A stretch of 64,000 nt of DNA from Arenicola marina. Its lineage: Eukaryota > Annelida > Polychaeta > Arenicolidae. The position numbers and the translations under genes were made by a program. Shown in pieces: positions 26,090-55,270 of this stretch (the first letter of the stretch is position 1; the number at the start of each line of letters is the position of its first letter). The notes under the pieces are model-generated. The model did no database searches and was not told the origin of the DNA. It saw nothing but the letters and a program-made list of their open reading frames with translations. The stretch covers positions 54,869,357-54,933,356 of the forward strand of contig OZ025250.1 in assembly GCA_964019135.1 (NCBI GenBank), written 5' to 3'.

Positions 26090-27605
26090 TTGGTTTCCTT
26101 TTCTCACAATGCTATGTCCTCCGTATCCTCCATTGAAATCCCTACTCCCTTCTTACCCTTTATTGGCACTTTCCTTCCCTACGCTGGAAATCTCATTCTC
26201 TATCTATCCTCTCCTGGCGCTATCACTTCTATTCACTGCTCAATCGCTCCTACTACTTCCATTGACAACTTATTCTCTAATTACACTTTCATTCCCTCCA
26301 TATTCTCTTCTCACACTGCCATTCCCTCCTGACGATCTCGCTGTCAGTCCCATGTTATTGTCTTCTGGCACGCCCTCCCTGCTGTCTTCCTGTTGTCCCT
26401 GCTGTCTTCTCATCAAACTCTGACTCCCCCTGTAACCTCGCCTGGCACTCCAATTTCCTCCATATCCTATAATGGAACTTGATTTCATCTGTTTGACTAT
26501 TTGTCCTCTCTTGCCACCCCATTCCGCTTTTTACGCTGTCCTGAAATGCTCATTCCCGTCTTACCTTCTCCTGGCAATGCAATTCCCTGCAATCCTCTCC
26601 TGGCACTCCCATTTCCTTCTTACCCACTCATGACAATGTTATTCCCTGCAATCCTCTCTTGCCTCTTCCATTGCCTTCATACCCACTCCTGGCAATATTA
26701 TTCCTTTCCTTCTTACCCATTCCTGTTAATGTTATTCCCTGAAATCCTCTCCTGGCATTCCCATTCCCTTCTTCTCCACTCTTGGCAATGTTATTCTCTG
26801 CAATCTTCCCCTGGCACTCCCATTTCCTTCTTACCCACTCCTGGCAATATCATTCCCTGCAATCCTCTCTTTGCACTCCCATTTCCTTCTTACCCTTCCC
26901 TGGTAATGTCATTCCCTGCAATCCTCTGCTGCCACTGCCTTTTCCTTCTACCCACTCCTGGCACTGTTATTACATGCAATACTCTCCTGGCACTCCCATT
27001 CCCTACTTATCGACTCCTGGCAATGTTATCCCCTACAATCCTCTCCTGGCACTCCCATTTCCTTCTTACCCACTCCTGGCAATATCATTCCCTGCAATCC
27101 TCTCTTTGCACTCCCATTTCCTTCTTACCCTTCCCTGGCAATGTTATTCCCTGCAATCCTCTCCTACCACTGCCTTTTCCTTCTACCCACTCCTGGTACT
27201 GTTATTACATGCAATACTCTCCTGGCACTCCCATTCCCTACTTATCTACTCCTGGCAATGTTATCCCCTACAATCCTCTCCTGGCACTCCCATTTCATTC
27301 TTACCCATTCCTGGCAACGCTATTCCCTGCAATCCTCTTCTGGCACTCCCATTTTCTTCTTACCCACTCCTGACAATGTTATTCCCTGCAATCCCCTCCT
27401 GGCACTCCCATTTCCTTCTTACCTACCCTTGGCAATGTTATTCCCTGCAATCCTCTCCTGGCACTCCCATGCCCTTCTTACGCACTCCTGGCAATGTTAC
27501 TACCTGCAATCCTCCCATGGAACTCCCGTTCCCTTCTCACCCACTCTTGGCGATGGTATTCAATGCAATCCTCTCCTGGCGCTCCCATTGCCTTCTTACC
27601 CAATC
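26090..27605. repeat. 59-bp minisatellite, ~17 good copies plus degenerate leader
   Basis: The unit is CAATCCTCTCCTGGCACTCC CATTTCCTTCTTACCCACTC CTGGCAATGTTATTCCCTG. Good copies occupy about 26560-27605 and decaying relatives occupy 26090-26560. With a period of 59 the frame shifts every unit, and all three plus frames remain open for long stretches because the pyrimidine-rich unit has no plus-strand stops. The 290- and 313-residue frames are therefore artefacts. Similar degenerate sequence recurs at 50695-50840. Confidence 0.9.
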
Positions 27606-27621
27606 CTGGCACTTGCCTTAT

Positions 27622-29537: not shown

Positions 29538-30240
29538 TCCATATGGCTCTGCATGTATATGTAATGAGGTGGATAGGGGACTGTGCCCACCCTGGCTCTG
29601 CATGTATATGTAGTGGGTGGGGTAGGGGACTGTGCCCACCCTGGCTCTGCATGTATATGTAGTGGGTGGGGTAGGGGACTGTGCCCACCCGGGCTTTGCA
29701 TGTATATGTAGTGGGTGGGGTAGCGGACTGTGCCCACCCGGGCTTTGCATGTATATGTAGTGGGTGGGGTAGGGGACTGTGCCCACCCTGGCTCTGCATG
29801 TATATGCACTGGGTTGGGTAGGGGACTGTGCCCACCCTGGCTTTGCATGTATATGTAGTGGGTGGGGTAGCGGACTGTGCCCACCCTGGCTCTGCATGTA
29901 TATGTAGTGGGTTAGTTGGGGGACCGTGCCCACCCTGGCTCTGCATGTATATGTAGTGGGCTAGTTGGGGGACCGTGCCCACCCTGGCTCTGCATGTATA
30001 TGTATTGGGTGGGGTAGGGGACTGTGCCCACCCGGGCTTTGCATGTATATGTAGTGGGTGGGGTAGCGGACTGTGCCCACCCTGGCTCTGCATGTATATG
30101 TAGTGGGTGGGGTAGGGGATTGGGCCCTCACTGGCTCTGCATGTATATGTAGTGGGTGGGGTAGGGGACTGTGCCCACCCGGGCTTTGCATATATATGTA
30201 GTGGGTGGGGTAAGGGGTTGGGCCCTCACTGGCTCTGCAT
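29538..30240. repeat. 49-bp minisatellite, ~14 copies
   Basis: The unit is GGCTCTGCATGTATATGTAG TGGGTGGGGTAGGGGACTGT GCCCACCCT. Variant units (CGGGCTTTG, GTTAGTTGGGGGACCG) recur in blocks, indicating block duplication. Minus-strand frames up to 197 residues cross it in three phases and are artefacts. Confidence 0.92.
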
Positions 30241-31490
30241 GTGAAGCGAGGGCGGTGGAGCGTAGGGCGCTCAATAATTGTTGCGCTCTGTTTGGCACTT
30301 GGTGCGCGTGTGGCGCCGCCTGGTTGGCGAGGGGACGTTTAGCCTCGTCTGGTATTCTAGGTGTGGCATAGTTAAATGTTATACTGTGCTTAGCTTTAGT
30401 TGTATCACGACAGGTAGCGAGCAATTTTCTGTGATATAGTTTGCATGTGTTACTATTCACACCGGTATTTGGTAATGTTTTGGGCACGGTTAAGGGGGAA
30501 AGAGCGAGGCTAGACAGTAAAGATGCCCAAAATGCATTGTAACTCGCATGTTGTTTCCTTGTCTTACAGTAGTGTAACTGTTTTACGCGGGTTGAGTTCC
30601 GAAGTTGGGAGTCTTAGTGGCGGACATTTAGATATTCATATTTGCAGGAAGGTTAGTTAATAGTAAGCCCAGGTCAGTTTAAGGAACGAACCAGATGTTG
30701 TCTTCTGATTGGATTGAGTCCAGGGTTTTAAAAGTACACAACGAGAAGTCGAGATTGAAGGATAGACGAAGGTACGATGCATAGGGATATACGCCCATAG
30801 CCACACCATACGCCCATAGCCACACCTCATGCATGTGTCATGCGCATGAGCAGTTGACCCCACGAACGAGGAAAGCTCTAGCCGCCGCCTATATGCGCAT
30901 GGTCACGTAGACCCGAAGCGTTAACCAACCCACTCAGCTCTAGCCGCCGCCTATGGGCGTATCAGACTCCTAATTTGCAAATCTGAAGCGTTAACGTCGA
31001 TACCTGACAGAGAAAAGCAGGCAGAGAAACCTCACTGGAAACCCTTTGGTAAGTCACTTACGCTTTGTGTTACATTATAATCTTTGACAAAAAGTTATTA
31101 AGTTGTTATTACTTATTATAGTTCAAGAAGTGGATGCCGGTTATAGACGTATATTGCAGGAGTTCTGTATCATCTTGTAACCTGAAGATGATGTGCTGAT
31201 GGTTCGAGCCACATGATAATTAGGAAAGCCTGTAATGAAAGATTATCTATTGTCAAAGTCCAAAACGCTCAATAGACCACTTCGCAAATCATATTTCAGA
31301 TTATTCCACTGTGCGGCGCCACTGCACGTGCAATGCATTCTGGGTATTATTTTGGTCTTAGCGGGATGTCAAGGTGGCGTCATCGCATGACAACGTATTT
31401 TGTAGACACTTAAACATGCAATATTGCCATCTATGTAACGGAAAAGTTACGTAATCTAGATGTAAGTTAGACATACTCATTAATTTTATA
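30241..31490. other. no gene seen; repeat fragments
   Basis: The direct repeat AGCTCTAGCCGCCGCCTAT occurs at 30873-30891 and 30938-30956. Bases 30970-31060 are the second copy of the GAAGCGTTAACGTC repeat found at 25565. A B-box-like GATGGTTCGAGCCACAT is at about 31198. Confidence 0.45.
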
Positions 31491-33037: not shown

Positions 33038-34920
33038 CTATGTCAGTTCGCAAATGTAAGAATTTAGGATGGTACATACATCACTATAGTGGTCAAGATA
33101 GTATTGTTTTACGTAGCGACTAAAACCGAGCAAACTGTGTGTCGTGACCTTGCTTTTGACTATTTCTGGAGTATAATTGAGAAGATTTGGTAGACTGTTC
33201 CTAAGACATTTCCTTGCAAACTCATGCTTGATTGGATTAAAGCAGAAGGCACTTTTATTGCTGATGTTGTAGTTATGTGTGGCAGCGTGTGGGTTTAAAG
33301 ACATTAAAGAGAAATAGTTTGATAGTTTATTGTTTACCAGCTTGTAACAAAAATTTAGCTGTTTTTATTTATGAATGTCATCTATCCTTAATGATCTAAA
33401 TTCTTTGAATAACGGTTCAGTGTATGCATTGCGCTAAGATTAAGTATTCTCGTAGTCTTCTTTTGCAATTGAAGTAATTGATCCCCTCTCTAACCCCAGA
33501 TCAATATTCCGCAATTTAAGCTAGATAGGACGAGGGCGTTATATAGCATGGCATTAATTTTCTTTGGTACAGTATATTTTAATTGGTTGAGAATGCCAAT
33601 TTTTTGGGATACGTTATGGGACAAAATATGCAGGTGATCATGCCATGAGAGGGAACAGTCTATTGTGATGCCCAATATTTTGAAGGTTTTAATACATTCT
33701 AGCTTGGTATCATTTATAATTGTTTCGGGTACACAAACTTTTGTTTGTGATACATAGAAAGTCATGAACTTTGACTTTAGAATGTTTAGCGATAATTTGT
33801 TCAATTTTAGCCATTCACTATTTTTTTCTAATTCGTTATTTATTACACTATATCCATTGTTCTCTACGGAATTACTATTTAACACGCTTAGTGTGCTTGC
33901 CAATGTTGTGTTGTCTGCATATATTATGGTTTTAAATATCTCGCTAGCTCTTGTAATGTCATTAATATATATTATAAACAAAAGCGGCCCAAGTATGGAT
34001 CCTTGGGGAACCCCTGTGGTTATATTTAATAAAGAACAGTTTGCATTGTCTAAATGTACAAATTGTTTACGGTTAAACAGATAACTTTCCACAAGTTTCA
34101 CGGCTGTCCCAACTATGCCATAATGCATAAGTTTATGTACTAATATTCTATGATCAAGCGTATCAAGGGCTTTGGAAAGATCTAAGTAAATATTGATTGG
34201 GATGTTTCCTCTGTCCATTTTTTCAATTGTTCTATCTACTAATTCAATTAAAGCTAGCTCAGTGGAATGATTTTCCCTAAATCCGCATTGGCTACTGCTT
34301 AATAACTTATTTGAATCAAAATGATTATATATTTGTTCAAACATAACCCTTTCAAATACTTTTGAGATAGCTGTGAGTAGTGATATAGGGCGATAGTTAT
34401 CTATTGATTGAGCATCACCTGTTTTAAATATTGGTATAACTTTTGCAATTTTTAGTTTATCGGGAAAGATGCCTGTAGTTAAGGATTGGTTTATTATTAA
34501 CGGAATTGCATCACTTACTTCATTTTTAATCGATTTGAGCATTGTAACAGATATGTCGTCCATTCCACTACTATGCTACGGTTTGAGTTTGTCTATAATA
34601 GTATCTTATCAATATCTCGTTTATTTATTAACTTGATTTTCATAGTCGACTGACAAGGATTATTGAGATAGGCTGTAAAGGATTTAGTCTGAGGTGTTTG
34701 AATTTCTCTAACAAGTTTGAGATCAATATTTGTAAAGTAAATGGGTTTGCTATTTGAAGTTCATTAGAGATGGATTATCCATTGGTGATAAGTTGTTGAG
34801 GTATGCCCTTTTTAAAGGCAGACTTGTTGAGGATAGACTTTATGTTTGCCCATGTGTTTCTTAGGTCTGCTTTGTATTTTTCGAATAGTACTTCATTGTG
34901 CTGTTTTTTAGCTAAGCTAA
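33038..34920 (-). pseudogene. 5'-truncated, mutated non-LTR retrotransposon (CR1/L2-like)
   Basis: Minus-strand reverse-transcriptase relic. The best frame (34563-33490) has the fingers block PDKLKIAKVIPIFKTGD, NYRPISLL, motif A YLDLSKALDTLDH (usual Phe replaced by Leu), motif B GVPQGSILGPLLF and motif C YADN at residues 215-218. The second catalytic Asp of YADD is Asn, which should abolish polymerase activity. Upstream, another frame (to about 34920) keeps NTWANIKSILNKS, typical of the segment before the polymerase. Downstream, 33304-33038 keeps a C-terminal RNSLPNLL block. The pieces need frame changes to join. The 3' end abuts a poly-G tract at 32988-33007. Confidence 0.85.
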
Positions 34921-36578: not shown

Positions 36579-37318
36579 CGTCGGCGCCCAGCGACAGACG
36601 CAGTCTCCAGCAACCGCTGGCTCCGCCGCTGGGATTCTTATTAACATTGTATAACTTATGTATATCGCCGCCGGCATGGCTATATATACGCGTAGCCAGA
36701 CGGCCAGGGTCTATTCTCTCTCTCTTCTCTTCCAGTGATGCTTTTCGGCGTCTTAGTTTTCGAGATATGAAATATTTTTGCTCTCCTTGTGCGCCATCTT
36801 AGAGTTGCATATGCGTTGCTCCTGGATACTCAAAAAAGATTTGTTTTAACATGTGTGTACACGGAGTTTGGTTACGGAGTTTTTAACAAAAGAAATGGCA
36901 TGGCTGCTCGTCTCATGCTTACAGCGCAGCAACTCTCCAAACGGCACCCTACATGTACGCCATGATGATGTTTTAACGCGTCGTATGGGATTATGGTAAA
37001 TAATTCTAATAGTGCTCCAGAATATAATTATCGCGTGTTTCATTTTGATGGAGCAATATTTTGGGTTTCATATCTTAAAAGTTCCTTTAGACCTAGGAGC
37101 TGCAATTTAACATGGAAATCCTAAGACTGAGCAGCTAAAATGTCGAATATCGAACAAAATAATAGAACTGGAGCTACGAAGGATGAAGAATCAAATGTGT
37201 CAAAAGAGGAAGTAGGTCATCAGTGGTCAAGCTGCGACTCAAGCCAATGGGGTGATAAGGCATCCCTATGGCCTCCAATGGAGTCCCAGGCCCGCAGGGG
37301 GAAGGGGGTGGCTGACGA
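36579..37318. other. no gene established
   Basis: A frame starting at 37140 in good context (AAAATGTCGAATATCG; product MSNIEQNNRTGATKDEES...) reaches a donor-like GAA|GTAGGT at 37212. It could be a 5' exon of the gene at 38.8 kb, but no phase-compatible acceptor was found there. Confidence 0.3.
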
Positions 37319-37700
37319 GGGGGGGGGGGGGGGGTGCACTAGAAGATATACACATGTGTACCGTCCAACTTATCTCTTTTTCGCAGGCTGTCTCTCTTTC
37401 TCCGGAGCAGAAACATTTTCTCTCAATGTGCCCATCTGAGACTGAACATTAATTGTTTTCTTTCCTTTTGTCCTCGGATATTCTGGTGACTCTCGCGCCC
37501 GGAGATCTCAATCAGCTGACCTATTTTCCTTTTTCTTATATACGTTGCATAACTGTCGGTATCTACGCTGGATATCATTGTCTTACCAAAATATTCTTTC
37601 TTGATGACCACAAAGTCGCGTACTTTTGTTCCACTACATATGCCCCGTAGGCCTATGGCACGGGCGGCACTCCCATTATTGTAGTAAGGTAACAACCCCC
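37319..37700. mobile_element. poly-G-ended non-autonomous element, copy 1
   Basis: Diverged homologue of 62174-62625 and 57905-58195. Shared blocks are ATACACATGTG.ACCG.CC near the left, CTCTCAATGTGCCCATCTGAGA, CTTGATGACCACAAAGTCG..TACTTTT, and GGGCGGCACTCCC near the right. It begins in poly-G (37320-37334) and ends in poly-C (37696-37707), as the other copies do. Confidence 0.6.
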
Positions 37701-38800
37701 CCCCCCCTCCGCGAGTGGAGTACTGCGGAACAATTTTAAATGTCTTTATTAATACCCGGAATACAGACTATATATTGTACAACAACTTCTACTGAGGGGG
37801 AGGGGGGGGGGCCTTATAATTTATAGCCCCGTTTAAGATATGTGTGCACTACGTATGCAGTAAGCAGCATTTTCCGGGATTCGGGATAACGCTTTATTAT
37901 CTTCGTGAACCGACAACGACTTAGGATTATGTTCGTGATTTGCCCGCCCATCTCTTATTTACTGAACCACGCGTGAATGTTTCCTTCGCAAAGCCGGTAT
38001 CCATACATTTTGCTCGTTTTTCGTGCTCGAGTTGGAATTATATCAAACGTATGTGCATCCTAGTACTCAACATCTTGACGGCATTACACCAGAAAAGGCC
38101 CGGTTTTTAGAATGTGACAATCCAAACATCACCAAACTCACCGCTGACTGAGGGGGGCGGGGGTGGGGGTGGAGGCAATGGTGATAAATTGAAAGGGAGG
38201 CAATGGAAGGGCGGATACATTATACTAAATTGATGATTTCCTAGTTCACGGTTATTTAATATTAAAATGCCTAGTTCACGATTAATGAAAATCCTTGATC
38301 ATGGCGTCCGGCTAATACCCCATTCCCAGTTCACGGTGGAATGAAAAGCCCATTCCCGCGAAACGCAAATACCCCTTGACTTCCCCCCCCCCCCCCTTCC
38401 CTTCACATACAGACACTTAGCTTAGACACATTTATGCTGGGACTGCGTGTGCCCTACGAAAAAAACTTCCACATGGGTAAGTAGTTATTCGTGACGTCAC
38501 CTTGCAGCCGCGAATATATGGACCCCTTCTCCAACAGCTTAGCGTTGAAATGAAATGTTGGTGTCTTAGGTAGAATAGATTTTAGCCCCTGGCTTGTCCT
38601 TTCGAAGACAAACATCTCCAAACACCATTATTAAATTAATATGATAATGAGTGCGCTGTGTTATAAAAGATCACAGCTTTAAGGTCTGTGCTTTAACCAT
38701 TCTTGTAATAATGTTATGTAGGTGTTCTTTGTTTAAGGGAGACGTACCCACTAGGCATGGCACTTCAGGGGTGTGAACCAGTGGACAACCATCGCCATTA
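37701..38800. other. no gene seen
   Basis: G-rich tracts at 37797-37811 and about 38155-38175, and poly-C at 38383-38396. Bases 38235-38360 contain four degenerate copies of a CTAGTTCACGGTTAATGAAAA-like word. Just upstream of 38801 there is an in-frame TGA at 38774-38776 with no convincing acceptor after it. Confidence 0.4.
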
Positions 38801-38981
38801 ATGGGACAACCGAGCGGATCAGTAGATCAGTCAGCGGCAATAACGGTGCGAAGGCGGAACGACCCGGAAGCAATGGAAGGTGTGGAAGGAGCCGGAGTAG
38901 CAGATGGCCTGCGTACACCCGATCATATGACTGTTCATGATATTGAATGCATACATACACTTATTGAGGATGTGAGAACCG
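38801..38981 (+). CDS. exon 1 of the duplicated-module gene
   Basis: Begins MGQPSGSVDQSAAITVRR and ends with HTLIEDVRT plus one base, at ACCG|GTGAGA. The preceding in-frame stop favours the Met at 38801. The 5' UTR is undefined. Confidence 0.65.
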
Positions 38982-41900
38982 GTGAGAAATAAGAATAGCA
39001 TTATTATTTTTTTTCTGTTCATGAAATGTGCGTAATCTTTTTTGGCGTCTTTGAAATGCCAAATTAATCTACTTCAATCTGTCCCACACCCATGTCCCTT
39101 ATACCGTAATGGTGAGTTGGCGGTTTTGTTTTGGAATATAATATTTGCCACGACTTCCGCCACGAATGTTTTACATGTTTGTAAATTAGGCAATATTTTA
39201 AATAGTTATGCTGGTTTATAACCTGGTCGCATGCAGATTACAGATACACGCTTTGTTTCAGATGGAGATAATGTTGTGGCGATTGAGCGGTCACACCTCA
39301 TAGTACGGACCACGTTGGCTGGCGGTTCAAATCTTGAAGAAGCCGCCGACCTGAATTACTTGAAATCAAAGATGGCTGAGCTGCGTAAGACATTTGAGTG
39401 CCATGGCATGGGTGAGGTTATTAAGATCCAGGCCGGATCGCTGCTGATCATCTGCGCATCAACGGCCTCGACGAAATACATAGCTTACAAACAGGAACAT
39501 ATCTTGACGTAGGCACGAAAAAACTACAGGATGTCTTGAACAGGGGTAGAGAAGATCGTGGTGCATGCAAGGCTGAACAGGACTTGGAACAAGCCAGACA
39601 CTTCTTCCTTACCGGTATGTATCCTCAAAAAGGCACGCGAATGCATTTACGACGCCCGAATGACCGCAATGTCCACTAAGATGCAAAATTACTTTTGGGG
39701 AAAAATAGCCTCCCCTCTTTCAATGTCAAATGGTCAGTTCCTAGTGGTATCGGCCAGTGATATCATGTTAACTTCGAAGTATGTGTTACAACACATAAAG
39801 AAAGAAAGGCGAGTAAGCCTTTATTTACCAAGGGGTCACTTAAAGGTTGTATATAAGTTCGTTTTCAATACCTATTACTGCACGCATGTCGATTTTCGGA
39901 GGGTTTCGACTCCATTGCATGGTCGCCACGGACAGAGCGATATCCCCCAAACCGGACGCTGACTACCTAGATTATAGTCACCATGCTTGGCAACGCACGC
40001 GACTGCGATGCTCACAGCACCATTATTCGTCATACTTTAACATTGATGCATCAAAACTAAAAATGCTGTAAATTAGTTGCATATGGCTAAATGATCATGC
40101 TGAGGACAATGCATGCTTGAATCTATTCATAATTAATAATATGTGAGACTTTTTGTGTTTTCTTACGCAGATCAGATCACAGTGCCTGTCAAGTTCCTGT
40201 TCTGCCATGAAAGGCGCTGCTGGTACTGGACTCTGGACATGGAAATATTGCATGGGCTGGATGTGTTTGCGGTACAGGCCGGCACACACGTTGGACGTCG
40301 CTTGGTCGTGCGCTTGGTGGAACTTGTCAGGAAATTACGATGTGCGAGTACGGCCCCGTCAAAAGTGGAACCGCGTCATTGTCTAATTTGTAAGTATGAA
40401 TCAAATGCTATATTATTGTATTCTCCATTATTTGCTTGGCCTACCCACCTAGGATCCTTGCCGAATATACTGGAGATTCAACAGTGCCTTGTTCTGATAT
40501 ATTCATGTCATCGTAGAGTCGACATTTGCCTAATCTACGACTGAGGTGTTTTGACACCATTATTATTCCGGTGGGTGGAAGGTGTGGCGGTCATACGGCG
40601 ATGGCGTCCTGACGTACATACAATACGTGATACCTAGTTCTCATTTGCCTGACTGTATCTTATTCCACCACCTTGCAACCAGAAGACAAACTTTTGACAA
40701 TGCAGTAAAATCTTTTTCATTTGCTGTTAGCTAGCGTTTGCTCAACACAGTCGGTCGCTGTCTAACATATGCTAGCGTCTTCACGGTTTGGCATTAACGG
40801 ATAGCGAAGTCTGAAGCCCCCTCCCCTCTCTCTAGCTTGCGGGCAACGAATGGCCCTGTCACCGCTGGTTGTCAGACTCACCCCAGGCCCCGGAATAAGT
40901 GTACCGTTGTCCACTATTAGCTAGTCGATAAGGACTCTATTTATGTTACTATTGCTTTAAACAAATTATTTAAATTTTAAGGTGAGTCACGAGCCGACTT
41001 CAAATATGACAAAGAAAGGCGGTTCGGTGACAAAGGTATGACAGCAATTTACTACCTACACGAATGATTTCATGATATAGGTAACACACATGATGCATTA
41101 TTTCATTTAATTGCATTTCTTCATGGTTTTAACAGAACACACAGAAACGGAATTTCACGCTTACTTGCATCATATATCATGATCGATATATATAAATAAC
41201 TTATACATTATACATGCATTAGAGAAAATGAATAAGGTAAAGATTTTATTCGAACCGTCCCCTATCCAGAAGCCGCTGTGTCGTCAAACAGCCCGATTCA
41301 AGAGACTGGTGTTCCCCGTCCTATCGGCTCAGCTGAACATAGAGAAGATGGAGATCCAGATGCCGGAGGTAGGTTTCGCAGTTTGATAGGTAACACATCA
41401 CATCGAGTTATATGTAAATGTACAATCTTGCCTTAGGATCGGACAGGAAATAATCTTGACATCGCCAATTTAATCAAATTACATTCCTGTCCCCAATACA
41501 ACCCTCACCTGTGCAGTTCTCACCAGATCCGCTTCTCTAGTGACTAACTCCACGCTCGGTCACCGTGAAACGAAACATCAGTTTACCAAAATTGTGTCAA
41601 TATCTCATGTTTCCGATTTGGCAGCGGATCTCTAACCGTGAACCGTAAACCTTCGTGGAGCAGATATAACGTTCAGAATCACCCCGGGCCCTAGTACCCA
41701 GGCAAGACCATGTTGAAGTGTGTGCGTATTGCTCGTGTGTTTCGTTCATGACTTATTCATAAACTCCTAATGAATTGCTCATGAACACGAAATGACACAA
41801 TTCTTGAAATCACCTAGTTCACAAACCTGAGTTCTTCAACAGCAGACACGTTCATGAACTGAGCATTTCATGATCACTTCATGAACTGAGCATTTCATGA

Positions 41901-44247
41901 TTACTTTATGAACTTAGCATTTCGTGATTACTTGATGAACTTAGCATTTCATGGTCACTTCATGAACTGGTAGCGAGTTTTGCTAGGATCCCACTCTGCT
42001 GGGCCAGCTCAAGCGGCGTGGTTCGATCTATAGAATTGATACGATCACCCATAGGTGTATATGATGCCCTGTGGTGAGACCATTCTGGGAAGACTTCCAA
42101 GGCAATTGCAATTGTTATTAGGAGATATTGCTTGTTACAAGAAATTTTATTGACAAACAGAACTGTAAGGTGGCACTAATTCTTTTAGCAAAAAAGCAGC
42201 TAGATAAGCATAAAAATGTCGCATTAGCCTATGAAATCATGCAATGGAATAGTTTGCTATGTTCGTCAAGAATTCCTGCATGTATAGTCGCACACGCAAA
42301 TGATATTTACAAACACAAATTGGTTTTAGAGGTATGCAGGGTTGAATCTGCAGTTTCTGTGGCACCAGTTTTTGTAAAAAAGACCCAGGTTTTTATCAAA
42401 CTGAATGTTTTTTCTCCAAATCAAAGAAAAAACATTGATAAAAACCTGCCGTTTTAATATGTCTATGTTGAGTTGGAATACGTACCGGCCAAAGGTAACA
42501 AAAACGATTCATGCCTTGTCTATATAGGTCAGAAAACACCTGTTCTGGGTTGTAGACGTAATGCGCATCGGGATACCTTTACGTCATGCGTTTAGTCGCA
42601 AACGTAAATTCGCATCGAATGACTCAATAAGCGAATTCGCCGAGCAATTGCTTTCCGAGGGGGATGTGTCCAACTTAATCGTGTGATAAGTCTTGGAAAA
42701 ATAAGCTGTGATTAAATTGTTAACTTGAACCTGTGTTTGACCCACGTAGCGGCTGTAGCTGATCCCCGTATATCGGTGGAGGAGACGGAGCCACCCGGAG
42801 ACTTCGAACCCGCCGGCCAGCAGCTGTCCCCGGAGCAAGTTAATGAATGGATCAACGATGTCAGACCACGCCAAATTGGTAGAGTTTATACTCAAATTAA
42901 TATCAACATGACTTTCAGAAGTAATCCTTTCAACAAAGCCAACGAAAAGAAAAGTGTTAAAGTTCGCACTTTTGGCATTGATTGCACTTGTAAAGTGACG
43001 GGTAAAATAATGATACTGTATTATTCTTTAGTATTACATGCCTGACATACCGTTTTCTTATTTATTTCGTAGCGGATGGGCGGATAGGACATGGAATGCA
43101 AAGCAATGTGCGTTTCAATGCGGCGAACCTATCAAGCAACGCTCAGTATGATGTAGATAACTATCCGCGACAACCTTTGTCAGACTGGTTGGGCATTGTT
43201 GATTTGCACCGCCTCTCAAAGGGATCACTGTTGCTACCCATAGTCCTGCTGTCACGTGAGGAGCTAAAAACCATCCAATGCCAGGATGTTCAGCAGATGC
43301 TGCTGAAGAGGATGCGGAAGCTGCTGATAGAACAACGAAAGGCTGGCGATGTCCCAGTCGATGCACTGGAGTCATTGACAATAGAGATATCATCAGAAGA
43401 CATAGACAAATTGGAGCACTTCTATGCCGCAGGTACTGGAATTTGCCATTTCCGGCGATCGACATTGGGCTGTTCCTTCCTTATGGGGCTGAACTTCTAT
43501 GGAATTGTATTTCATGTATTACGATCCAGTGTGCATGGAGGCTTTATCTGTGTGTCAGGTTATGCTGCTTTATTTTATGAGGTCCATGCACCAGCCAAAT
43601 GATCGCACATCTTTAATTGACCTGTGCATATCGAAAGACGGAACTCTAATTCAAAAAGATATGTCAAATTTTATACCGATAGTTGCTGATGACATCTATT
43701 TGAATAGCAGCAAACCTGCAAAATGGGAAATCTACACTTTAAATAAATTATCCGTGTTATATGTTTCAGATCCCATCCCTCTTCCCGCCAGTTACGTGTT
43801 CTGTGGTGAGACATGCTACTGGTATTGGACAGCGGACGGTAATATATTTCACCGAGTGGATGTCTGCCAGGTCGCGGCTGGGAAGCACAAAGGCCAGAGG
43901 CTTCGAGAGCACGAAATACAACTATGCTGGAAGCTTTGGCAACTCACCGAAGGACCGCTCAAAGATCACAATCGGTGTCCTGTTTGTAAGTGTATAGTTC
44001 AATGTCATCAAATTTGAAGTATCTTGTTATAGGCATCGCCAGTGCTTGCATGAACATGTTCACGTCTAAGAACAGGCGAATGAAATTCATAATTGTGTAG
44101 TGTTTGCAGATAAGTTTGTTTCGAAAAGTAATGCTAAAATTGACGGGTTTTTTTCACATTGCAGGTAAGCACAGGAAATCAAATGATGGTCACATATTTC
44201 CAAAAGAGGCCGCCAAAAAGCCAGAAACACATGGTTTGTTAAACTAA
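38801..44247 (+). CDS. nine-exon gene with a duplicated two-domain module, family unrecognised
   Basis: Nine exons join through eight phase-1 introns (179-1381 bases) with GT/AG borders. Exon lengths (181, 353, 219, 54, 99, 129, 360, 216, 83) keep one frame if a single base missing near 39451 is restored, giving about 564 residues. Exons 2-4 and 7-9 are homologous modules. Each has a helical domain with a conserved GSLL core, a ~72-residue domain (FC, WYWT, AGxHxG, CxxC) and a short basic exon. Exons 5-6 are an acidic linker. No signal peptide or membrane segment is seen, so the protein is probably intracellular. The GSLL-type domain resembles small domains in invertebrate immune-receptor proteins by eye only. 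Function is unknown. The start at 38801 follows an in-frame stop but could be an internal Met of a longer first exon. Confidence 0.8.
39262..39614 (+). CDS. exon 2: first GSLL-type helical domain, carries a frameshift
   Basis: Acceptor TTTGTTTCAG|AT and donor TACCG|GTATGT. The first half reads LEEAADLNYLKSKMAELRK and VIKIQAGSLLI. After a one-base skip near 39451 the second half reads LRINGLDEIHSLQTGTYLDV, KKLQDVLNRG and EQARHFFLT. This aligns with exon 7 (GSLLL, LSREELKTI, LLKRMRKLL, IDKLEHFYA). Length 353 is the only exon length that breaks the frame. Confidence 0.75.
40171..40389 (+). CDS. exon 3: first FC/WYWT/CxxC domain
   Basis: Acceptor TCTTACGCAG, donor ATTT|GTAAGT. 73 codons. Contains VKFLFCHERRCWYWTLD, ILHGLDVFAVQAGTHVGRRL and a closing RHCLIC whose last Cys codon is split by the intron. 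Paralogous to exon 8 with about a third of residues identical. Confidence 0.85.
40982..41035 (+). CDS. exon 4: short basic exon after first domain
   Basis: 18 codons: ESRADFKYDKERRFGDK after completing the split Cys. Acceptor AATTTTAAG, donor AAAG|GTATGA. Occupies the same place as exon 9 in the second module. Confidence 0.7.
41270..41368 (+). CDS. exon 5: acidic linker
   Basis: 33 codons, with polar residues such as VSSNSPIQETGVPRPIG and EHREDGDPDAG. Acceptor CCTATCCAG, donor GGAG|GTAGGT. It has no domain-like pattern and probably is a flexible linker. Confidence 0.7.
41853..41968. repeat. 27-bp tandem repeat in intron 5, ~4 copies
   Basis: The unit is TGATCACTTCATGAACTGAG CATTTCA. It lies inside the longest intron of the duplicated-module gene, which is otherwise featureless (41369-42749). 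Confidence 0.85.
42750..42878 (+). CDS. exon 6: acidic linker
   Basis: 43 codons including DPRISVEETEPPGDFEPAG and LSPEQVNEWINDVRPRQIG. Acceptor GACCCACGTAG, donor ATTG|GTAGAG (weaker). The length is a multiple of three and the phase is kept, as in its neighbours. Confidence 0.7.
43073..43432 (+). CDS. exon 7: second GSLL-type helical domain
   Basis: 120 codons. Order: polar start, SDWLGIVDLHRLSKGSLLL, LSREELKTIQCQDVQQMLL, KRMRKLLIEQRKAGDVP and ESLTIEISSEDIDKLEHFY. Acceptor TTATTTCGTAG, donor GCAG|GTACTG. Intact, unlike exon 2, with which it aligns. Confidence 0.85.
43770..43985 (+). CDS. exon 8: second FC/WYWT/CxxC domain
   Basis: 72 codons. YVFCGETCYWYWTADGNIFH, then RVDVCQVAAGKHKGQRL, QLCWKLWQLTEGPLKDH and RCPVC with the last Cys split by the intron. 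Acceptor TATGTTTCAG, donor GTTT|GTAAGT. The first Cys, WYWT, both His and the CxxC are shared with exon 3. The second N-terminal Cys is displaced by one position between the copies. Confidence 0.85.
44165..44247 (+). CDS. exon 9: short basic terminal exon
   Basis: Reads KHRKSNDGHIFPKEAAKKPE THGLLN then TAA. CATG|GTTTGT at 44233-44239 could be a weak donor. If used, splicing to 45860 in phase would give a stop after three residues, so the C terminus hardly changes. Acceptor TTTTTCACATTGCAG is strong. No convincing AATAAA follows closely. Confidence 0.65.
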
Positions 44248-44872
44248 TACAAAATATACGCAAGTGTGTTATCTGAAATACCAGATGAAATACATTTGAT
44301 ATGGAATTGATGTTATATTATATATAGTTCAGTAGCAGAACCTCTCTGTTTTGCATTTCATATATAAAGACGCGCTGCTGAAGCGATATGGAATGAATGT
44401 TATATTATCGCGCATGGACCAGCGCCCAGTATTTCTTAGGTCTAGAGGGACTTTCAAGACATAAATCCCAGTATATTGGGCCATCAAAATAGAATAACCG
44501 TTTTATTGAGGAAACTATTAGAAATATTTTTCATGATTACAAGTTGACACATCAGGAAATAGTCAGAGGCGATCAATCGACGTTTCCTGGCGTAAATGTA
44601 GTTCCAGTTTATGAGCAGATGCGCCATACACAGAGTGTATAAATGTATGCTACAAAACATCGCAGGATAAATATAATTAGCATGATCCACAATTAAGCGG
44701 AACCTGTATCTACGTAACATGGGGCGAAATTACAGGCTTGGCTGTTTAGATGTCACTCCTCATGTTTAGACTCTAACCAGTGTCACGCTAGCAAAACTGT
44801 GATATATTTGAAAATATAGGAGGGGGGGGGGGGTCTGCAGTGGTTGTAACCTCCTTCGGGTAGGCTACTCAG
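44248..44872. other. no gene seen
   Basis: Presumed 3' UTR and intergenic sequence. A poly-G tract is at 44821-44833. Confidence 0.4.
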
Positions 44873-45256
44873 GGGCGGATCCAGCAGACAATCATATAAA
44901 AGCTGACGTGGATCCAGGAATTTAAGAATTTGAAAGGGGCTATTCACATCCCCATTTTGGGTTTAAAACTATGACGACCGGGGAAGGGGGGGTTGAACCA
45001 AAATAGGCGATTCATATATATAACATTGGGGTCCATTAAAAAAAACACGGGTGTGGCGTCCACATTTTAGCTGGCATACGGTTACCATTGACCAAGAGCA
45101 CCCTCCCTCAACAAGGGGAGGGGGTCAGACCCAAAGACTCCCGCTCGGATATTTTTATACTGCCTATGCGGGAAGTAACATAAGGAATCTGTGACCCCCG
45201 CCACCCCAAACTTTCTACAGGTCACGGGTACCCTATGACCCCCCTTGGATCCGCAC
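44873..45256. mobile_element. possible hAT-like non-autonomous element
   Basis: The left end AGGGGCGGATCCAGCA and the right end TTGGATCCGCACCT are near inverted repeats. The interior contains a further GTGGATCCAGGAATTT copy and no coding frame. Target duplication was not identified. Confidence 0.45.
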
Positions 45257-47370: not shown

Positions 47371-48292
47371 ATTTCATCACACGGAGCCATAGCCCAGCGC
47401 ATGGAGCCATAGTCCAGTGCACTGAGCCATAGTCCAGCGCATGGAGCCATAGTCAAGTGCACCGTGCCATAGTCCAGCGCATGGAGCCATAGTCAAGTGC
47501 CCGGAGCCATAGTCCAGTGCCCGGAGCCATAGTCAAGTGTACCGTGCCATAGTCCAGCACATGGAGCCATAGTCCAGTGCACGGAGCCATAGTCCAGTGC
47601 CCGGAGCCATAGTCTAGTGCACGGATCCATAGTCCAGTGCACGGATCCATAGTCCAGTGCACGGATCCATAGTCCAGTGCACGGGCTATAGTCCGGTGCA
47701 CGGATCCATAGTCCAGTGCACGAAGCCATAGTCCAGTGCACTGAGCCATAGTCCAGTGCACGGAGCCATAGTCCAGTGCACGGATCCATAGTCCAGTGCA
47801 CGGATCCATAGTCCAGTGCACGGGCCATAGTCCAGTGCACGGATCCATAGTCCAGTGCACGAAGCCATAGTCCAGTGCACTGAGCCATAGTCCAGTGCAC
47901 GGAGCCATAGTCCAGTGCACGAAGCCATAGTCCAGTGCACTGAGCCATAGTCCAGTGCATGGAGCCATGGTCCTGCGCACGGTGCCATAGACCGGTACAC
48001 GAAGACATAGTCAAACGAATGGATCCATAGTCCAGCACACGGAGCCATAGTCCAGCGCACGGAGCCATAGTCCAGCGCACGGAGCCGTAGTCCAGCACAC
48101 AGAGCCATAGTCCCGCACACGGAGCCATAGTCCCGCACACGGAGCCATAATCCAGCGCACGGAGCCATAGTCCCGCACACGGGGCCATAGTCCAGCGCAC
48201 GGAGCCATAGTCCCGCACACGGAGCCATAGTCCCGCACACGGAGCCGTAGTCCAGCACACAGAGCCATAGTCCAGCGCATGGAGCCATAGCC
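47371..48292. repeat. 20-bp minisatellite, ~45 copies
   Basis: The unit is CCATAGTCCAGTGCACGGAG. Blocks of variants (CGGATC, CGAAGC, CTGAGC, then CCCGCACACGGAG toward 48.1-48.25 kb) recur in the same order at 47625-47760 and 47775-47945, showing duplication of multi-unit blocks. Minus-strand frames up to 255 residues (DYGSVHWTMAPCTGL repeats) reflect the lack of stops in the unit. Confidence 0.93.
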
Positions 48293-48305
48293 ATTATTTA
48301 TATAG

Positions 48306-48783
48306 ACTTGGGCGTGTGAGGCATCAGGCTTGGGCGTGTGAAGCATCAGGCTTGGGCGTGTGGGGCATCAGGCTTGGGCGTGTGAGGCATCAGGCTTGGG
48401 CGTGTGAGGCATCAGGCTTGGGCGTGTGGGGCATCAGGCTTGGGCGTGTGGGACATCAGGCTTGGGCGTGTGAGGCATCAGGCTTGGGCGTGTGAGGCAT
48501 CAGGCTTGGGCGTGTGAGGTGTCAAGCCTGGGCGTGTGAGACATCAGGCTTGGGCGTGTGGGGCATCAGGCTTGGGCGTGTGAGGCGTCAGGCTTGGGCG
48601 TGTGAAGCTTCAGGCTTGGGCGTGTGAGGCGTCAGGCTTGGGCGTGTGAGGTGTCAGGCTTGGGCGTGTGAGGCATCAGGCTTGGGCGTGTGAAGCAACA
48701 GGCCTGGGCGTGTGAGGTGTCAAGCTTGGGCGTGTGAAGCATCAGGCCTGGGCGTGTGAGGTGTCAAGCTTGGGCGTGTGAGA
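48306..48783. repeat. 22-bp minisatellite, ~21 copies
   Basis: The unit is GCTTGGGCGTGTGAGGCATCAG condensed in near-identical copies; the unit word GGGCGTGTG is invariant. It directly abuts the preceding unrelated array, with only about 15 bases between them. Confidence 0.93.
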
Positions 48784-51257: not shown

Positions 51258-51378
51258 GTGTTGTGTATTCTCGTTGTAATATCTGTAGGTAAGTGGTTAA
51301 TTTCTTACGACCGCAAACGGCTCTTTAACAAACCGGCGATATTTATTACAAATCACGCTGCAGGATATGCATTGTCAC
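51258..51378 (+). repeat. dispersed repeat shared with 17.2 kb
   Basis: Second copy of the segment at 17217-17357. It ends directly at the C-rich repeat that precedes the carrier exon. Confidence 0.6.
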
Positions 51379-51379
51379 C

Positions 51380-51510
51380 CACAGGCAGACCCCCCGCACC
51401 ACCCAACCACAGACGCCCCCCACACCACCCAACCACAGACACCCCCAACACCACCCACGTGACCCCCATACCACCCACGTGATGCCCAACCCACCCACAG
51501 ACCCCCACAC
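51380..51510. repeat. short C-rich tandem repeat
   Basis: About 25-base units of the type CACCACCCAACCACAGACSC. It lies just inside the intron downstream (on the minus strand) of the carrier exon. Confidence 0.75.
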
Positions 51511-51517
51511 CACCCAC

Positions 51518-51724
51518 CTGCAGCCCCTCCACGTATTGCTGGCTGCTGGAGAAGGTGGAGAGCTGGGCGTCCGAGCCAACCATGACCCTGGGAACGGCCC
51601 CGGAGAGACCCCGCACGCCGTGCTGGCGGTAGATGGCGAGCAGGGCGCTGAACATGCCCGTGTGGTGGTGCTGGAAGCCCACGGCTATTTGCTGGGCCGA
51701 CAGCGCCTGCAGATGGGTCTTCAC
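51518..51724 (-). CDS. single exon of an SLC25A34/35-like mitochondrial carrier
   Basis: The exon encodes 69 residues of the second carrier repeat: [16 protein letters not shown], a [19 protein letters not shown] segment, [13 protein letters not shown] and [11 protein letters not shown]25A34/35 proteins have VKTHLQ followed by AVGHQ, GMF..L and VGS..QL.TFSS at these positions. This family sits in the mitochondrial inner membrane; its substrates are not well established. Borders are TTTTACCAG| (acceptor) and CTGCAG|GTGGGT (donor), phase 0 on both sides. Family members have a GLWRG..GG stretch where this reads GLSGA, so about four residues including the conserved Trp-Arg-Gly are missing in frame. 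The flanking exons were not found in the window, so it may be an isolated or decaying exon. Confidence 0.85.
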
Positions 51725-51794
51725 CTGGTAAAACACATTGAGCAATTACTTCCACCCGCTACGTGGCGCCACGCTGTCGACCCTAAACCGAACC

Positions 51795-54439: not shown

Positions 54440-55270
54440 GTGTGTCACACCAGTGTCACACTGGTCTGGTCAGTGTCACTCTGGTCTGGTCAGTGCCACA
54501 CTGGTTGTTGGTGCCACATTGGTCTAGTCAGTGCCACACTGGTCTGGTGAGCGTCACACTGGTCTGGTCAGTGTCACTCTAGTCTGGTCAGTGCCAGACT
54601 GGTCTGGCCAGAGTGCCGCATTGGTCTGGTGAGCGCCACACTGGTCTGGTCAGAGTGCCACACTGGTCTGGTCAGTGTCACTCTGGTCTGGTCAGTGCCA
54701 CACTGGTTGTTGGTGCCACATTGGTCTAGTCAGTGCCACACTGGTCTGGTGATTGTCACACTGGTCTGGTCAGTGTCACTCTAGTCTGGTCAGTGCCAGA
54801 CTGGTCTGGCCAGAGTGCCGCACTGGTCTGGTGAGCGCCACACTGGTCTGGTCAGAGTGCCACACTGGTCTGGTCAGTGTCACTCTGGTCTGGTCAGTGC
54901 CACACTGGTCGTCGGTGCCACATTGGTCTAGTCAGTGCCACACTGGTCTGGTGAGTGTCACACTGGTCTGGTAAGTGTCACTCTGGTCTGGTAAGTGTCA
55001 CTCTGGTCTGGTCAGTGCCACACTGGTTGTCGGTGCCACATTGGTCTAGTCAGTGTCACACTGGTCTGGGGAGTGTCACACTAGTCTGGTAAATGTCACT
55101 CTGGTCTGGTCAGTGCTACACTGGTTGTCGGTGCCACATTGGTCTAGTCAGTGCCACACGGTCTGGTGAGTGTCACACTGGTCTGGCCAGTGTCACACTG
55201 GTCTGGTCAGTGCCGCACTGGTCTGGTGAGCGCCACACTGGTCTGGTCAGAGTGCCACACTGGTCTGGTC
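54440..55270. repeat. 20-bp satellite with ~200-bp higher-order unit
   Basis: The basic unit is GTGCCACACTGGTCTGGTCA. Diagnostic variants (GGTTGTTGGTGCCACATTGG, CAGAGTGCC, GGTGAGCG) recur in the same order with a spacing of about 200 bases (for example near 54503, 54706 and 54908). This is a higher-order repeat. Confidence 0.92.

Follow-up and report, generated by a model that had tools for sequence, protein, structure and literature searches.

The TRADD-N superfamily comprises domains that fold like an RRM and carry a 'uS' turn, whose Ser is sometimes replaced by Cys (PMC8195603). These domains have been proposed to link the immune and cell-death systems of bacteria and animals, and expansions of genes carrying them are reported from marine invertebrates (PMC8195603). 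In the DEDD2 and NCOA6 clades the expanded genes occur in many copies, diverge fast and combine a TRADD-N-type domain with a second domain. The main text of that survey makes no mention of annelid, Capitella or polychaete, and its sections 8 and 11 name no partner domain resembling the one described below (PMC8195603).

We analysed a stretch of 64,000 nucleotides from Arenicola marina (the window), located on contig C3, and searched the genome of this species (867 Mb, 762 contigs) for relatives of a gene found in it. The gene belongs to a multi-copy family whose members carry one or two copies of a two-exon module, a first domain followed by a short domain that we call WYW. The family resembles the three groups of the TRADD-N superfamily (TRADD_N, PF09034; TRADD-like_N, PF20694; NCOA6_TRADD-N, PF13820) as surveyed in PMC8195603 in having Gly-Ser or Gly-Cys at a strand-strand turn, a helix before the turn and another after it in the same order, and a multi-copy expansion. 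Like the genes of the DEDD2 and NCOA6 clades, it diverges fast and joins its TRADD-N-type domain to another one. It differs from the domains of that survey in the longer helical stretch behind the turn, and no Death, DED or known effector domain adjoins the first domain in the pieces scanned. The family is most likely lineage-expanded and, going by literature searches and curated profile libraries alone, apparently undescribed so far; it escapes the library of curated profiles that we used. The best overall explanation, to which we give an even chance of being correct, is a lineage-expanded family of TRADD-N-like two-domain adaptors that would act in annelid immunity or cell death.

Structure of the gene and its duplicated module

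The gene has nine candidate exons between positions 38801 and 44246, placed as in the preliminary description, with AG/GT borders and all eight introns in phase 1 (Table 1). The nine-exon model takes all of its junction support from conservation among paralogs, and the exon layout recurs in other loci of the same genome. The lengths of exons 3 to 8 are multiples of three, and that of exon 2 is not divisible by three.

Table 1. Exons of the gene and flanking inverted repeat, in window positions, with the loci (L numbers) in which counterparts of the smaller exons were found.
Feature	Position	Strand	Description	Counterparts
Inverted repeat, upstream arm	36990..37098	.	Pairs with 44434-44537 over 109 aligned nt (73% complementary); possible tie to gene	
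Exon 1	38801..38981	+	Start codon, short N-terminal region; frame open, GT donor	L009, L010, L026, L028; L012 weakly
Exon 2	39262..39614	+	First TRADD-N-like domain (putative); FRAMESHIFTED between 39449 and 39452; 353 nt, two frames	
Exon 3	40171..40389	+	First WYW/CxxC domain; score 129 against exon 8	
Exon 4	40982..41035	+	Short linker exon; AG/GT borders	L009, L010, L013, L015; L012 partial
Exon 5	41273..41368	+	Linker; AG/GT borders	L009, L013, L015, L017, L018
Exon 6	42750..42878	+	Linker rich in Pro/Glu; AG/GT borders	L009, L013, L015
Exon 7	43073..43432	+	Second TRADD-N-like domain (putative); open frame	
Exon 8	43770..43985	+	Second WYW/CxxC domain; open frame	
Exon 9	44165..44246	+	Short basic C-terminal exon; AG acceptor, in-frame stop codon	L009-L018
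Inverted repeat, downstream arm	44434..44537	.	Partner of 36990-37098	

The duplication of a two-domain module within the gene, noted from the start, is real. The paralogy of exons 3 and 8 is clear from their 40.5% identity and from a local score of 129 that none of 2,000 shuffles reached. For exons 2 and 7 the window sequences alone are suggestive (score 43, reached by 16 of 2,000 shuffles), and the relationship becomes firm when small profiles built from the paralogs of each exon are compared with hhalign (probability 92.7% over 85 columns, equalled by none of 60 column shuffles). The preliminary description had equated exons 2-4 with exons 7-9 as a whole. This applies to the first two pairs, the exon 2/7 pair only through the paralog profiles, but homology between exons 4 and 9 is not detectable (score 16, reached by 642 of 2,000 shuffles). 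Exons 1 and 6 match each other at chance level (779 of 2,000), and the WYW domain and the first domain are unrelated to each other by profile comparison.

The preliminary description had not recognised that exon 2 of the window copy is out of frame: its GSLLI and NGLDEIHSL stretches lie in different frames. The frame containing GSLLI ends in AYKQEHILT and a stop codon, the segment from NGLDEIHSL to FFLT is read in another frame from 39452, and the switch is located between 39449 and 39452. Both halves stand in a single open frame in seven other loci (L009, L010, L012, L026, L028, L037 and L038), and in L011 the second half was found and the first was not. Because the frame is broken here while the seven paralogous exons are open, the window copy appears to be either damaged or wrongly assembled at exon 2, and its first half, being out of frame, is probably non-functional.

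The near-identical copy L009 lies about 196 kb from the window gene and is 98.3-98.7% identical to it over positions 37500-44992 (7.5 kb compared). Exon 2 of the window copy lacks ten codons present in L009, which in turn lacks four codons present in the window. We consider it rather probable that this copy is a young duplicate turned pseudogene through loss of the reading frame in exon 2, irrespective of the role of the family. The frameshift and the ten-codon loss relative to such a similar copy (about 98.5% identity) point in this direction, as do other damaged copies: L010 is without exons 5-7, exon 3 is shortened in L015 and L036, and the copy at C6:25603536-25603756 is split over two frames. 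On the other hand, the window copy retains open frames and intact splice signals in exons 3-9, and the apparent frameshift could stem from an assembly error of one base. The pseudogene reading is about this copy and does not conflict with what we take to be the best explanation of the family.

Selection was estimated by a simple counting method from pairs with dS over 0.05, which are not independent of one another. Exon 8 is under purifying selection, with a median dN/dS of 0.27 (53 of 55 pairs). The medians are 0.51 for both exon 3 (44 of 45) and exon 7 (43 of 45), 0.63 for the first part of exon 2 (12 of 15) and 0.68 for exon 6 (5 of 6). Exon 1 is fast-evolving or weakly constrained, since its median reaches 1.1 (7 of 10).

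Related loci in the genome

Genome searches returned 29 matches with exon 8 (including itself and exon 3), 32 with exon 3, 34 with the WYW exon of a one-module gene and 10 with exon 7, itself included. Sorted by position, the loci comprise at least 12 of the two-module type and 11 with one module. Eleven of the former have two WYW exons, three of these pairs having been joined by hand across 13-21 kb, and one has an exon of the exon 2 type together with a shortened exon 3; among the one-module loci, one is split over two frames. Copies of the family are present on C2, C3, C6, C8 and C20, that is, on at least five chromosomes or contigs.

Intron positions are common to the members. All ten one-module loci that we examined resemble exons 3 and 8 at the WYW exon: AG stands at the acceptor, and the donor GT interrupts the last Cys codon, reading GTAAGT in six, GTGGGT in three and GTGAGC in one. 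The donor of the first-domain exon is GGT in each of the eight one-module loci read. Using the one-module first-domain exon of L025 as query, we obtained 23 genome hits with E values from 1e-56 to 3.4, many of them weak alone. In 19 cases a WYW exon follows at most about 5 kb downstream of the hit, in three it follows after 17-19 kb, and for the hit at C6:35583083 none was found.

The first domains of the one-module loci form two types. By profile-profile comparison, the type found on C2 and at 34-36 Mb of C6 is linked to the exon 2 type at 67.9% and to the exon 7 type at 73.0% (0 of 60 shuffles each), and the two one-module types are linked to each other at 94.3% (0 of 60 column shuffles). 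The type at 25-26 Mb of C6 is barely linked to the exon 7 type (1 of 60 shuffles), and a direct link to the exon 2 type is absent (8 of 60).

The two domains and their proposed role

No clean profile match to a described family emerged for either domain. Pfam scans covered single members, 15 rows of each of the alignments A1 and A5, and the leftovers; SMN_Tudor (E 0.018, exons 8 and 9), DUF4365, PAS_7, ATP-synt_F6 and other names all fell below the cut-off and were not common to the members. Sequence searches of the PDB gave nothing significant, the best E values being 1.3 for exons 7-9 joined, 0.061 for profile A2 and 0.39 for profile A1.

The first domain had been called helical. An alpha/beta domain seems to fit the alignments better: the order we read from them is helix-strand-GS turn-strand-helix-strand-helix. 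Exon 7 folded alone with AlphaFold has a pLDDT of 48.7, too poor for judging an RRM-like two-layer alpha+beta sandwich. At the position of the TRADD-N turn motif, where a tiny residue and a Ser or Cys stand between beta2 and beta3 (PMC8195603), the exon 2 type and the exon 7 type have GS, and several one-module types have GC. Exceptions are L025, which has RC, and the type at 25-26 Mb of C6, where GC is shifted by one or VC occurs.

None of the three Pfam TRADD-N models is listed for any family member scanned. In genome searches, PF20694 and PF13820 matched NCOA6 alone and no family member. The three models together likewise found nothing but NCOA6; one of these searches gave no hit anywhere and is by itself hardly informative. 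Single NCOA6 and human TRADD sequences compare with the family at chance level (20 and 28 of 200 shuffles). The NCOA6 match itself, L030 (G000:C2:26085684-26085944), is the genome's own NCOA6 TRADD-N exon and lies inside a glutamine-rich frame of more than 1600 codons.

As a bacterial reference we used 16 TRADD-like_N stretches (L121-L136) from 13 of 24 genomes of Nostocales (cyanobacteria), one of which has three such domains within about 24 kb of a single contig. A first profile comparison with 15 family sequences gave 2.3% in the wrong register (3 of 200 shuffles), and six comparisons by subgroup gave 0.95-15.4%. When twelve realigned family sequences, excluding the type at 25-26 Mb of C6, were compared with the 16 stretches, the probability rose to 40.3% with a score of 26.7, which none of 100 column shuffles reached (maximum 19.6), and the GS turns aligned unforced. 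With NCOA6 and TRADD added to the target, the value was 33.3% (0 of 100 shuffles). Controls gave 2.0% for the reversed profile, 0.4% for HetR and 0.15% for the WYW domain, and omitting one subgroup lowered the value to 23.5, 9.3 or 4.7%. Because the twelve sequences were picked after earlier results, we grade the support for TRADD-N as moderate. The TRADD-N lead of the preliminary description accordingly stands at the level of the motif and, moderately, in the profile comparison, but the Pfam models and the first comparison did not bear it out. Kinship of the first domain with TRADD-N is plausible, with moderate support.

Alternatively, the module could be a lineage-specific novelty without TRADD-N kinship, its GS turn and strand-helix pattern being convergent and its role something other than immune signalling. 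We regard this as a possibility to be taken seriously, if well short of even. It agrees with the missing Pfam and significant PDB sequence matches of both domains, with a top profile support of just 40% that depends on the choice of sequences, and with the chance-level results of NCOA6 and TRADD taken singly. It does not readily explain why no column shuffle equalled the twelve-sequence comparison or why the GS turns coincide unforced, and the pattern of gene expansion resembles the one reported for TRADD-N genes (PMC8195603).

The WYW domain is about 73 residues long. Residues C12, W18, W20, D23, V35 and R44 are invariant in the 15 rows of alignment A1, and H28, C70 and C73 are near-invariant (at least 90% of the rows). 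Among 31 copies, selected by a pattern that itself demanded the first Cys, the His is present in 30 and the CxxC stands at the usual distance in 29; in the other two, whose exon is shortened, the CxxC lies closer. Conservation of the C-H-C-C set, shared with small zinc-binding domains that have CHCC ligands, suggests that the domain may bind zinc. It differs from that general kind in that no family match was obtained and its spacing and WYW core fit none of the families found. No Pfam family scored above the cut-off for this domain. A search for relatives in bacterial and archaeal genomes and in viral contigs gave 23 and 27 pattern matches, none of which was confirmed. The AlphaFold model of exon 8 with exon 3 is poor (pLDDT 49.2).

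Under the TRADD-N-like reading, the first exon of the module would encode an alpha/beta domain for protein interaction and the second the short WYW domain, perhaps folded round a zinc ion. One-module genes contain the unit once and two-module genes twice, with copies spread over the chromosomes or contigs listed above. If it works like TRADD-N proteins, the first domain might dock a partner through its Gly-Ser turn, the WYW domain might recognise a ligand or relay a signal, and we infer that the protein could be an adaptor or a switch of innate immune or cell-death pathways. In a more specific form of this proposal, the family is an undescribed one of annelid immune or cell-death adaptors in which a divergent TRADD-N domain and a new zinc-binding domain form one phase 1-1 exon-shuffling unit, tandem-duplicated into a two-headed adaptor, with copies turning over fast by duplication, deletion and frameshift; we advance it tentatively, its chances being somewhat less than even. 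If this is correct, annelids would hold a divergent expansion whose partner domain is new, the known repertoire of TRADD-N partners would grow, and the two small single-exon domains would be amenable to expression and structure solution.

Repeats and other features of the window

The inverted repeat (Table 1) bears on whether the gene is the cargo of a DNA transposon, with the two arms as its ends. The arms do flank the gene, L009 also has an inverted pair, L026 and L028 carry repeat-related sequence upstream of their exon 1, and copies of the family are scattered over several contigs, all as expected of such an element. However, the pair in L009 is not independent evidence, because that locus is a near-identical duplicate, and two insertions of a common repeat account for the arms equally well. 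We judge the transposon reading very improbable.

About 4 kb upstream of the gene, on the minus strand, is a reverse transcriptase frame of the non-LTR type (33493-34575), whose first 160 residues match Pfam RVT_1 with E 2.6e-10. A fragment resembling a mitochondrial carrier protein is found at 51356-51745, also on the minus strand; its Mito_carr match (E 3.2e-4, 20.8 bits) does not reach the cut-off of 22.3. Scans of the window for tRNA and Rfam families gave no match. The window is rich in tandem repeats, whose units measure about 20 to 235 nt, with arrays at 169-2738, 26551-27611, 29544-30242, 47380-48782, 54451-55270 and other positions. In the assembly as a whole, contig C762 is mitochondrial and shows the gene order of annelids, nad3-S1-nad2-cox1-N-cox2-D-atp8-Y-G-cox3 (invertebrate code; genes named from translations).
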